A stretch of DNA of 42,453 nt. It comes from Myxococcales bacterium (lineage in GTDB: Bacteria; Myxococcota; Myxococcia; Myxococcales; Myxococcaceae). The notes under the pieces were generated by a model, which saw only the letters and a list, made by a program, of their open reading frames with translations, made no database searches and was not told the DNA's origin. Position numbers and translations under genes: made by a program. How positions within the stretch are numbered: the stretch's first letter is position 1; every line of letters starts with the position of its first letter. The stretch covers positions 1-42,453 of the forward strand of contig JACPVI010000050.1 of NCBI GenBank assembly GCA_016191815.1, in the 5' to 3' direction. Of the stretch, positions 13,260-36,500 are shown piece by piece.

Positions 13260-14060
13260 ATGCGCCGCGTCATCCTGGCGATCCTGCGCTGTCCGAAGTG
13301 CCGGCGCGGAGGCCTGTTGCCGGAGTCGGACGTCGCGGAGCTGGCGTTCGGGCCGATCCGCTGTCCCGAGTGCCACGCGAGCTTCCCGGTGGGCGAAGGA
13401 GTTGCGGATCTGGTGACCGAGCGCGGCGTTCCCGGGACGCTGCAGCGCGGGCTGGAGCAACCGCTGGTGGCGCGTTCCTACGAGCGGTACGTGCGTCCGG
13501 CGTTGCAGGTGGCGATCTCGCGGCGGCGCTTCGACCGAGACAGCGAGTACCTCATCTACCGTTCGCTGCTGGGGAAGCCAGACGGCCCGGTGTTGGACTT
13601 GGGGTGTGGCACGGGCCTGTTCGCGAGGCGGCTGGCGCGAGACCCGGAGGTGCCCGCAGTGGTGGGGATGGACGTGTCGAAGGCGATGCTCGAGGAGGGG
13701 GTGGCGCAGGCGCGGGAGGCGGGGGTGATGGTGGACCTGGTGCGGGCGGACGCGCCCTACCTGCCTTTCATGGACCATTCGCTGGGCGGGGTCTTGCACT
13801 CGATGTCCTTGCACCTGATCTCCGACGCCACTCGGCTCTTCATCGAGGTGGGGCGTGCGCTGAGGCCTGGAGGCCGGTACGTGGCGAGCACCTATCTGCC
13901 GCGGCCGTACTTGGCGGACTGGGTGCATCGCCGGGCGGGGCTCCATCCGCGGGGCGAAGACGAAATCCGCAGCGCGATCGCCTCGGCAGGTCTGGTCAAC
14001 TTCCAGCGAATTCTCTTGCCGCCGTTCCTGGTGGTGAAGGCGGAGAAGGCGGCGAGGTGA
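13260..14060 (+). CDS. Class I SAM-dependent methyltransferase with N-terminal zinc ribbon
   Basis: Protein of 266 residues. It opens with a Trm112-like zinc ribbon (two CPxC pairs, CPKC and CPEC), followed by a Rossmann methyltransferase domain with motif I VLDLGCGTGLFARRLA at about residue 112, motif II VVGMDVSKAMLEEG and the post-motif Asp in VRADAPYLPF. This arrangement is common in bacterial methyltransferases annotated as Trm112/UbiE-like. The substrate is unknown. It lies 10 bases downstream of nadA and is probably cotranscribed, but a link to NAD synthesis is not implied. The gene is followed directly by a large inverted repeat. Confidence 0.88.
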   Translation: MRRVILAILRCPKCRRGGLLPESDVAELAFGPIRCPECHASFPVGEGVADLVTERGVPGTLQRGLEQPLVARSYERYVRPALQVAISRRRFDRDSEYLIYRSLLGKPDGPVLDLGCGTGLFARRLARDPEVPAVVGMDVSKAMLEEGVAQAREAGVMVDLVRADAPYLPFMDHSLGGVLHSMSLHLISDATRLFIEVGRALRPGGRYVASTYLPRPYLADWVHRRAGLHPRGEDEIRSAIASAGLVNFQRILLPPFLVVKAEKAAR

Positions 14061-14064
14061 AGCG

Positions 14065-14207
14065 AGTCGAGGGCCGAGGGTCGAGCGTCGAGCGCATCCG
14101 TCCAGCGACGGTCAAGCGACTGGACGGCTGAGAGTCGACTGACGACCGTCGAACGCTGGACGCGACTCGACGGGTCGCACTCGACCCTCGACCCTCGACC
14201 CTCGACT
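14065..14207. repeat. Long nested inverted repeat (hairpin-forming intergenic element)
   Basis: The outer arms 14065-14092 and 14180-14207 are complementary at 26 of 28 positions and built of GTCGAGG-type heptamers; the right arm reads as repeats of CTCGACC. Inside, 14099-14107 (CGTCCAGCG) pairs with 14154-14162, and 14107-14113 (GACGGTC) with 14144-14150. The whole 143-base stretch can therefore fold as one long interrupted hairpin. It fills almost all the space between two convergent genes. It could act as a bidirectional transcription barrier, or be a copy of a dispersed palindromic element. Confidence 0.85.
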
Positions 14208-14209
14208 GG

Positions 14210-14557
14210 CTAGATAAATACGCCGGCCGTCGCGTCCCGCCGCGCCTGGCAGGGCACCTTCAGCGGATCGGGCACGCCGCGCAGCGACTCGATGATGCGC
14301 ACCTTCTCGGCACCGCACTTCGCGCACTGGCAGTCGCCCTTCTTGCAGGTGCACTCCGCGGCGTTGCCGCAGGAGCACTTGCCCACCACGCCCTCGCTCG
14401 CCTTGAGCTGCTTGGCCGCCTCCGCCTTCTGGGGCGCCTTCAGGCCCTTGCCCTGGCACGAGCAGCCCTGAACCTCGCAGGCCCAAGCCGGCCCCGCGCC
14501 GAGCAACAGCGCGCCAAACGCCACCGCAGTCGCCAGTTTTCCGAGCGTGCGAAGCAT
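14210..14557 (-). CDS. Small exported Cys-rich, metallothionein-like protein
   Basis: Protein of 115 residues. A clear signal peptide ends LGAGPAWAC. The mature part has Cys in metal-binding spacing: CEVQGCSC, then CSC, CTC, CQC and CAKC between residues about 60 and 82, separated by Lys- and Ala-rich segments. This looks like a secreted or periplasmic metal-binding protein similar to bacterial metallothionein-like proteins. No catalytic motif is visible. ATG 14557 is supported by GGGAGG 5 bases upstream. The stop lies 3 bases from the inverted repeat at 14065-14207. Confidence 0.82.
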   Translation of the reverse strand: MLRTLGKLATAVAFGALLLGAGPAWACEVQGCSCQGKGLKAPQKAEAAKQLKASEGVVGKCSCGNAAECTCKKGDCQCAKCGAEKVRIIESLRGVPDPLKVPCQARRDATAGVFI

Positions 14558-33537: not shown

Positions 33538-36500
33538 TCAGTCCCGCCGCCGCCGCCGCAAGAGGACCGCCAGGGCGAGCAGGCCCCACAGCCCCACCTC
33601 CACGCCGGAGGAGCACCCGCAGCCCTTCTTCACGTTGACGTCGGAGGGCCCTCCGTCCGGGGTGAGCTGGCCGGCATCGTTGTCGGGCTGCGTCCCGGAG
33701 TCGGGGCAGTTGCAAGTGCAGGTCCAGGTGCCGTTGTCGCAGGTGTCGGTGGGCGTGCAGCCCTGCGGGCAGGCCCCGCAGGGGTTCGCGCCGCAGCCTC
33801 CGCCGGCGTCTGCTCCGCCGTCGCTATCGGGTCCGCCGTCCGCCGCCGGCCCGCCATCGGTGCCGCCGTCGGGCGGGAAGACGCACACGTTCCCGGTGCA
33901 GCTCGCGCCCGGAGGACAATCAGCCGAGGTGAGGCAGCAGCCCGAGATGGGAGAGCTGCTGCAGCTGCCTCCCACGCCCGAGCAGGTGTCCAGCGAGCAA
34001 GGGTTGAGGTCATCGCAATCCGCCGAGGAGTTGCAGCAACCCACCAGGGGCGAGTTGGAGCAGACGTTGGACGAGCAGCTGTCCGTGGTGCAGGCGTTGG
34101 AGTCGTCGCAGTCGGAGGCCACGTTGCAGCACCCCGCCACCTTGGTGTTGGTGCAGGTCCCTCCGGTGCCCGAGCAGGCGTCGTTGGTGCAGGCATTGCC
34201 GTCGTTGCAGTCGGCGGCGCTGTTGCAACAGCCGGCGATCTGCGAGTTGGAGCAGAGGCCTCCCGCCCCGGAGCAGGTGTCCTGGGTGCAAAGATTGGGG
34301 TCCGTGCAGTCGGCGTTGGTGTTGCAGCAGAGCGGGATGGCCGGGTTGGAGCAGGTCCCTCCCAGCCCCGAGCAGAGGTCCTGGGTGCAGGCGTTGCCGT
34401 CCCCGCAGTCGGCGGCGGTGTTGCAGCACAGCGGGATAGAGGGGTTGGAGCAGGTGCCGGCCGCGCCGGAGCACACGTCCGAGGTGCAGGCGTTGCCGTC
34501 CGCGCAGTCCGCCGCGGTGTTGCAGCAGCCCGGCTTGGCGGGGTGAGTGCAGGCGCCGCCTCCGCAAACGTCGTTGGTGCAGTTGTCGCCCTCGTCCGGA
34601 CAGGGGCCGGTGTTGTTGGTGTAGGCGCAGGCCCCGGTGTCGAGGTTGCAAACCTCGTCGGTGCACACGTTGCTGTCGTTGCAGGAGGCAAGCGAACAGG
34701 ACGCGTAGCGGCGCTGGTAGGAGCGAGTCACCCCGCTCCGGCTGGACTGGTAGACGACCAGCACTTGCCCGCCCGTGCCGCGGGCGAGCGCGGGGAAGCG
34801 GTCCGGGTTGGTCCCGGTCGAGACGGCAAATTTGGTCGCGTCCACCAGCGCGGTGGCGGTGGGCGCGGTGGCGCTCACCCGCATTCCGTAGAGGTCGTAC
34901 TCGTTGCCTCCCAGCCGGTTGTCGTCCCACACGATGAGGAAGTCGGTGCCGTCATACTCCGCGGCCGGGGCCACCTGGCCCAGGACGTCCTTGTCCACCG
35001 CGATTCCGCCCGTGCCGGCCGGCCCGTCGGTGAGCGCGCCGCCGGTGGTGACCCTCGCCGCGAAGATGTCCGGCTGGGTGGTGTTGTCGCGCAGGTCCTG
35101 CCAGGCGACCAGGTAGGTGCCGCCCCCGAACGCCACCGCAGGCTGGAGTTGATTGGAGCCTGGCGGCGTGGCGATCGGAATCCCCGCCCCATCGAGCACC
35201 GTACCCGCGTTCGACACCCGCGCTCCGTAGATGTCGGAGTTGGCTGCGGCGTTCCGCGTGTCCTGCCAAGCCACGAGGAAGTCCGTGCCGTCGGAGGCGA
35301 CCGAGGGCTGGGTCTGCCCGTTGGCCGCGGCGCTGATCATGAAGGGGCTGCCGGCCTCCAAAGCTCCGGCGGCGGAGACGCGCGCCGCCTGGATGTCGGT
35401 ATTGAACGCCCCGGCCTGCCAGGCCACCAGGAAGCGGGTACCGTTCCCCGCCACCGAGGGCGCCTGCTGGGTGAGCGCGCCGACGCCGATGGGCAGCCCC
35501 ACCGCCGCGGAGTCGAGCACGGTCCCCGCGGGCGAGACGCGGCAGCCGTAGACATCGTAGTTGCCGCCGCCGTTTCGGGCGTCGCGCCACACCACCAGGT
35601 AGACGCCCCCGGAGAAGGCGACCGATGGCTCCCACTGCTCGGCGGAGTTGTTGTTGATGAGGATGCCGTTGTTGTCGAGCACCGCTCCGGTGGCGTCCAC
35701 GCGCGTGCCGTAGACGTCAAAGCCGGTGGCGCCGTTCCGGCTGTCCGCCCACACCACCAGATAGCCGGTGCCGTCGGAGGCCACCGCGGGCAACGCCTGC
35801 GCGTTGGGTCCGGTGGACACCGCGATGCCCAAGGGATCGAGCACCGCCGAGCCGCTCGGAGGCACCCTCGCGGCGTAGATGTCCTGGGTGGTGGAGGGGT
35901 TTCGCGAGTCGGCCCACACGGCGAGGAAGTTCGTCCCGTCGTAGGCGAGCGCCAAGGTCTGCTGCATGTTGGCCGCCGCGCTCACCGGGAAGCCGGTGGT
36001 GGAATCCGGCAGCACCGTCCCTCCGGCCTGCGGGCGCGCGGCCCAGATGTCGGTGCCGCCGCCTCCACCGGGCCGGGTGTCCTCCCAGAGCACCAGGAAG
36101 TTGGTCCCGTCGCTGAAGGCGCGCGGGGCGGACTGGCTGTTCGCCGCGGTGTTGATGGCGAAGCCGGCGGAATCGAGCACGCTCAGGTTCCCCGAAACCA
36201 CCTCGGCGCGAGCGCCGTAGACGTCGGTCTGGCCGCCTCCCGGCCGGGCGTCGCCCCAGGCCACCAGCCAGCGCCCGGCGGAGTTCACCGCCACCGTGGG
36301 CGCCGACTGCTCGAGCGGCACGTTGGAGATCACCACCCCGGTGGGTTCCTGCACCACCCCGGCCGAGGTGACCCGGGCGCCGTAGATGTCGCTCTGGGTG
36401 GTGGCGTTGTTCCTGCCGTCCTGCCACACCACCAGGGCGATGTTGCTCGCCGAGTCGGTGGCCAGCGCGGGCACCTGCTGCGGGCTGCCCGCCACCAGGC

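Follow-up and report, generated by a model that had tools for sequence, protein, structure and literature searches.

The nested palindrome at positions 14066 to 14206 of the window (the whole 42,453-nucleotide stretch of Myxococcales DNA that was analysed) belongs to a family of intergenic palindromes that is specific to this genome; in most copies of the family a heptad end adjoins a stop codon, and the element takes up almost all of the spacer between two genes. The family is a well-defined variant of the heptameric, REP-like repeats found at the 3' ends of genes, and it is new as a variant. Judging from sequence, we regard it as an evenly balanced question whether the element would function as a boundary at the 3' ends of messages, including protection or attenuation of the mRNA.

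The element at 14066-14206 is an imperfect palindrome of 141 bp without strand, consisting of two monomers with their heads outward; its edges were set by comparison with other copies and are common to 29 full-length copies. The original prediction had described a 143-base nested inverted repeat between convergent genes, with outer arms pairing at 26 of 28 bases, further pairing of inner arms, and arms built from a heptamer repeat, and all of this was borne out. Read from the sequence, the outer arms 14065-14092 and 14180-14207 do pair at 26 of 28 bases, the longer arms 14061-14095 and 14177-14211 show 89% pairing over 35 nt, and the inner arms pair further in. The left array of four GTCGAGN heptads (14066-14092, plus strand; from the sequence and the 29-copy consensus) reads GTCGAGG GCCGAGG GTCGAGC GTCGAG, and the right array (14180-14206, minus strand) consists of three CTCGACC heptads followed by CTCGAC. 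Between them lie the left inner units GTCCAGCG (14100-14107) and GTCAAGCG (14111-14118), spanning 14100-14118 on the plus strand with the family consensus CCGTCNAGCGNCCGTCCAGCG, a GTCGAC palindrome without strand at the centre (14134-14139; consensus GGTCGACC), and the right inner units CGCTGGACG (14154-14162) and CTCGAC (14166-14171), spanning 14154-14171 on the minus strand according to both the sequence and the family consensus. The predicted folding energy is -91.1 kcal/mol for the plus strand and -104.7 kcal/mol for the minus strand, and on neither strand did any of 200 dinucleotide shuffles fold as well (z -7.57 for the plus and -9.25 for the minus strand), which answers the folding calculation that had been proposed as a check.

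The left flanking gene (13260-14060, plus strand) encodes a SAM methyltransferase (Pfam Methyltransf_25, 3.2e-19), and the right one (14210-14557, minus strand) a 115-aa cysteine-rich protein without a Pfam match. The two genes are convergent and both stops, a TGA at 14058-14060 and a TAG on the minus strand at 14210-14212, face the element, leaving as non-element intergenic sequence only 5 bp after the TGA on the methyltransferase side and 3 bp to the TAG on the cysteine-rich side. Rfam 15 gave no matches above the gathering score in the window. Elsewhere in the window, tandem 99-bp repeats are found at 34048-34542.

It is clear that the element is not present in a single copy. BLAST of the element against its own genome gave 77 matches, counting both strands. 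The full-length copies that were read number 29; they measure 136-145 bp between the outer heptads and share 62-83% pairwise identity (median 72%). A covariance model built from these copies gave at least 41 distinct two-armed loci, i.e. the 29 full-length copies and 12 longer ones of approximately 151-203 bp; the number comes from a hand count of 82 both-strand rows and is a floor, since only 150 of 9961 candidates were scored. Approximately two dozen single-arm copies were read as well (11 plus 13 arrays). The pattern GTCGAGNGTCGAG has 249 matches in this genome compared with 1 for the reversed control, and the earlier suggestion of a dispersed palindromic element is thereby confirmed. In a 662-kb sample of the genome that includes the window, none of five clusters of three degenerate heptads fell within called genes; elsewhere one partial copy (L041) and one array in L195 are exceptions located inside a called gene.

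Each arm is a monomer of approximately 70 bp with four GTCGAGN heptads followed by GTCNAGCG units; the common 141-bp form is two monomers placed tail to tail, and single monomers are also present. The family consensus is nearly identical to its own reverse complement and the left and right arms show the same spacer preferences, so the arm is the repeat unit. The GTC-AG positions hardly vary, whereas the seventh base and the inner N positions approach saturation: with column classes chosen after the alignment had been seen, copies differ pairwise by 6.5% in core columns, 62% in spacer and N columns and 49% in the centre. Spacers 3 and 4 are mostly C or T in both arms, which is a statement about composition only, and the element ends are mostly R-GTCGAG...CTCGAC-Y, where the hyphens mark the element edges.

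Conservation of an RNA structure was considered, and the copies show little sign of it. The six facing spacer pairs are complementary in 77 of 174 cases, less often than the shuffled mean of 85.9, and compensatory covariation was not clear in the 29 copies, where 12 pairs with double changes compare with 12.8 after shuffling. The covariation score (0.093 against 0.086 in shuffles) was reached by 55 of 500 shuffles; the share of paired cells was 85.2% against a shuffled 84.4%, and only 8 of 500 shuffles reach that share. The sequence is thus held more than the helix as such, either copy by copy or at the level of the source copies. At the heptads it is sequence and not pairing that is conserved, which suggests that the repeats are read by a protein in addition to forming the hairpin. 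As an alternative, the element could be a platform of double-stranded DNA whose heptads are bound by a nucleoid or regulatory protein, with the palindrome as a by-product of paired sites. The conserved GTC-AG cores with facing spacer bases that vary without pairing, and the four-heptad arrays in both arms, are what such a platform would present; most heads nevertheless adjoin stop codons, for which a pure DNA site would have no need, and we consider this explanation improbable.

The placement of the family is best described from the 29 full-length copies, of which 12 lie between convergent, 15 between co-directional and 2 between divergent genes. The convergent class is enriched compared with 81 of 512 background junctions (P 9e-4). 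Of 39 gene ends on the stop side, 35 lie between -2 and +10 bp from the element, three lie inside it and one (L031) is 19 bp away; counted per copy, 23 touch a stop, three contain one and three do neither (L031 and the two divergent copies). Background values for stop proximity were 6.3% for random intergenic points and 45.6% for random junctions, and the abutment is significant even against the latter (P 9e-9, resting on the hand count of 35 of 39). Gene ends were taken from a home-made ORF caller, and the infB stop alone was checked against orthologues. In all 12 convergent spacers, one of which (L021) depends on a low-scoring ORF, at most 10 bp remain besides the element, compared with 22 of 81 convergent gaps in the background (P 1.6e-7). 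Of 39 stops on the element side 19 are TAG, whereas the background has 160 TAG stops among 519 (P 0.015), and several element ends provide the G of the TAG stop. Among the single-arm arrays the heptad end touches a stop in 8 of 13 (L197-L200 and L204-L207), while L195 (three arrays), L196 and L202 are exceptions. At L016, L019 and L030 the neighbouring gene runs 30-64 bp into the element before its stop, so that the element would encode its C-terminus.

If the element is a boundary, it would form a stable hairpin immediately behind the stop codon when transcribed from either side. Such a hairpin would protect the upstream mRNA against 3' exonucleases and would slow RNA polymerase down or attenuate it, and where the genes converge the symmetry of the palindrome would serve both strands. 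The existence of the family, the spacer preferences common to both arms, the conservation of the core columns, abutment to stops and the convergent enrichment count for this reading, and the role of a transcription barrier that had been proposed for the window copy is plausible from its placement. The 15 of 29 copies between co-directional genes count against it. So does the rarity of T-tracts, found at 2 of the 58 ends of the 29 full copies, together with the lack of clear covariation. The element shares with intrinsic terminators a GC-rich hairpin behind a stop codon, but it has no T-tract as a rule, is far longer and belongs to a repeat family; a scan found no terminator-like site at the window copy, and the original view that this is not a simple terminator is supported. 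A strict scan found a hairpin with a T-tract at only 7 of 514 background gene ends, so this genome shows few canonical terminators in any case. Hairpin clusters have been reported as terminators in a paper with a section according to which U-trails are not necessary (PMC8355165).

One junction could be compared with orthologues aligned on both sides. The copy at L027 lies between infB (Pfam IF-2) and a DUF503 gene, presumably ylxP, and the gene order around it is kept in relatives. In our genome the infB-DUF503 spacer is 153 bp, of which 144 bp are element (L027:2058-2201); in 12 relatives, where stop and start codons align with ours, it is 36-141 bp and contains neither GTCGAG nor CTCGAC. A plain insertion would have kept the old spacer; the alignment shows that the element replaced the spacer that the relatives have. 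By eye, the relatives carry a purine-rich, Shine-Dalgarno-like sequence before the DUF503 start that our genome does not have and that was apparently removed. The replacement counts for a boundary, while the copy itself counts against one, because a strong terminator between genes of conserved order would be costly.

The next long conserved gene after infB-DUF503 is pnp, identified by its PNPase domains, and a single-arm copy lies behind it. A terminator scan requiring perfect stems passed three of eight relatives at this site (G008, G013 and G016) and failed our own stretch; by eye terminators are present in five of the eight, G010 and G014 having a hairpin with a weaker T-rich tail. We count the pnp site in favour of a boundary. 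In G020 another gene follows directly after pnp. Two relatives (G007 and G008; L282 and L283) carry a different repeat behind pnp, with CCCTCTCCC/GGGAGAGGG and CCCTCTCCCTCTGGGAGAGGG...GGGTGAGGG palindromes, and a member of another genus (G011; L287, C29:1450-1900) has a long tandem hairpin of CGGGAN hexads at the pnp end. CGGGAN as a parallel dispersed family in that genome is unsupported, since the strict pattern gave 2 matches against 2 in the control.

According to Di Nocera et al. 2013 (PMC3733652), most REPs lie no more than 20 bp from a 3' end and have convergent or co-directional neighbours, and our family shows the same placement. It also resembles the GTAG and CGTC families of REPs and REPINs in being dispersed, in forming inverted dimers and in that an element end can supply TAG, but the REP unit described there is a palindrome of 20-40 bp, unlike our arms of approximately 70 bp and dimers of 136-145 bp, and our ends lack the GTAG or CGTC tag that marks the base of the REP stem. 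In the same text GTAG REPs are tied to RAYTs, and another report links REPs within 15 nt of the ORF end with translational control (PMC12306157). In the literature searched, the one listing on myxobacteria and REPs was unrelated as judged by its title, no title named the GTCGAG unit, and the 13-mers of the family were themselves not found. REPs are also known to affect mRNA stability. MITEs are short, palindromic, dispersed and non-coding, and our element is like them in all four respects; it differs in that no target duplication was detected and in that its ends are tandem heptads.

These likenesses raise the alternative of a selfish, REPIN-like mobile repeat, spread by a transposase and surviving best behind stops, where its copies do little harm. 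Dispersed inverted dimers with single monomers, the 3'-end intergenic placement shared with REPs (PMC3733652), and the confinement of the family to its own lineage as far as sampled would all be expected of such a repeat. However, a search for the transposase family Y1_Tnp (RAYT) gave 0 matches in our 98.8% complete genome, while 5 of 14 control genomes were positive; no target-site duplication was found at the copies (P 0.96 adjacent and 0.76 anywhere in 14 bp); the copies are old, as seen from their median identity; and the infB-DUF503 spacer was replaced and not added to. We find this alternative doubtful. RAYT mobilisation was rejected on the same transposase result. Of 20 other genomes chosen for GTCGAG hairpins 12 have Y1_Tnp; G071, with 215 heptad-pair matches, has none. 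Mobility at the present day is unsupported, also considering that 59 relatives from its family or order, none of them congeneric, showed only weak matches among the matches listed.

Heptads of this kind have been described in Xanthomonas (GGGAATC) and Nostoc (GGGGA(C/T)T), with a 7-bp unit that has variable positions (GGGANTN) and is mostly present four times (PMC4692102). In Xanthomonas they form 70 and 75 inverted pairs in two genomes (Rehm et al. 2015, PMC4692102) and are intergenic, strongly biased to or over the stop codon and rare between divergent genes. Our family has the same tandem 7-bp unit, commonly in four copies, and the same inverted pairs and stop-codon proximity; its own features are the unit GTCGAGN, the fixed architecture of approximately 141 bp and the conserved inner units. 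The quadruplex-capable G-tracts of the Xanthomonas heptads are not kept, as spacers 3 and 4 indicate by composition. Transcripts start or stop more often at the quadruplex-forming heptads than at controls (PMC4692102), but the authors could identify no role in gene regulation, which counts against a boundary. Rehm et al. 2015 also refer to earlier work in which heptamers were over-represented (PMC4692102), and polymerase slippage as a proposed origin of 7-nt repeats is quoted there and in PMC4679880.

As far as sampled, the family is restricted to its lineage. Within its phylum a three-heptad match was present in 3 of 194 other genomes, one of which (G037, of the same order) has 14; in unselected samples, three-heptad arrays occurred in 4 of 195 genomes of this phylum, our own included, against 3 of 195 for the reversed hexamer, and in 11 of 396 genomes of the Acidobacteria-record phylum, the centre genome included, against 13 of 396. 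Outside that centre genome the number of matches was 56 against 33 in the control, G522 alone accounting for 26. A strict two-arm pattern found 64 stretches in other genomes, titled Planctomycetota, Acidobacteria, Verrucomicrobia, Alphaproteobacteria, Rhodocyclaceae, Gemmatimonadaceae, Prevotella and others, and 20 of 20 genomes selected by the GTCGAG pattern itself had 6-273 heptad-pair matches against 0-7 in the control. The inner sequences of these stretches look unrelated to ours by eye, and homology across phyla is not claimed, because neither unselected sample gave an excess of genomes over the reversed control. Two Brevundimonas records (L189 and L193) share a similar inner sequence between their heptad arms.

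Two features of these stretches, their stops and the presence of hairpins with other units, played no part in the selection. An ORF stop lies within 20 bp in 29 of the 64 stretches, against 7.4% of random placements; a codon-trained gene call located 20 of them within called genes, which is probably too many because the caller was trained on little sequence. In 462 kb from these chosen genomes, 15 further heptad hairpins have units other than GTCGAG (L138:4694-4822, L165:3512-3586, L176:4056-4166 and others), with a stop within 60 bp in 10, five of them within 20 bp. Hairpins at other periods numbered 0 at 5, 1 at 6, 1 at 8 and 0 at 9-12, and tandem arrays of at least four units numbered 85 at period 7, a total to which the selected GTCGAG arrays contribute; periods 4-6 and 8-12 had no more than 1 each. 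Heptad-armed hairpins could be a class of 3'-end boundaries found across phyla, in which unrelated bacteria use their own 7-base units and a process stepping by seven lays both arms, plants them behind stops and can overwrite older spacers and terminators; we think this unlikely. The same 15 hairpins and the near exclusiveness of period 7 would also suit a mutational by-product, where 7-nt slippage, as quoted in the two papers above, and inverted duplication make heptad hairpins wherever selection allows. Slippage, however, does not give copies that share spacer preferences and a 141-bp inner sequence, and no heptad hairpin of another unit was found in the 662 kb of our own genome; we regard a by-product as very improbable.

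The heptameric 3'-end repeats of Xanthomonas and cyanobacteria have been little studied, and they are here extended to another lineage in a sharper form, whose two-monomer architecture is fixed, whose conservation is position-specific and which offers a junction that can be compared with the spacers of relatives. That a spacer was replaced and not inserted into has a bearing on how REP-like repeats reach the ends of genes. Should the period-7 hairpins of other phyla prove to be the same phenomenon, the preference of bacterial repeats for seven, an old observation, would acquire a location and perhaps also a function.
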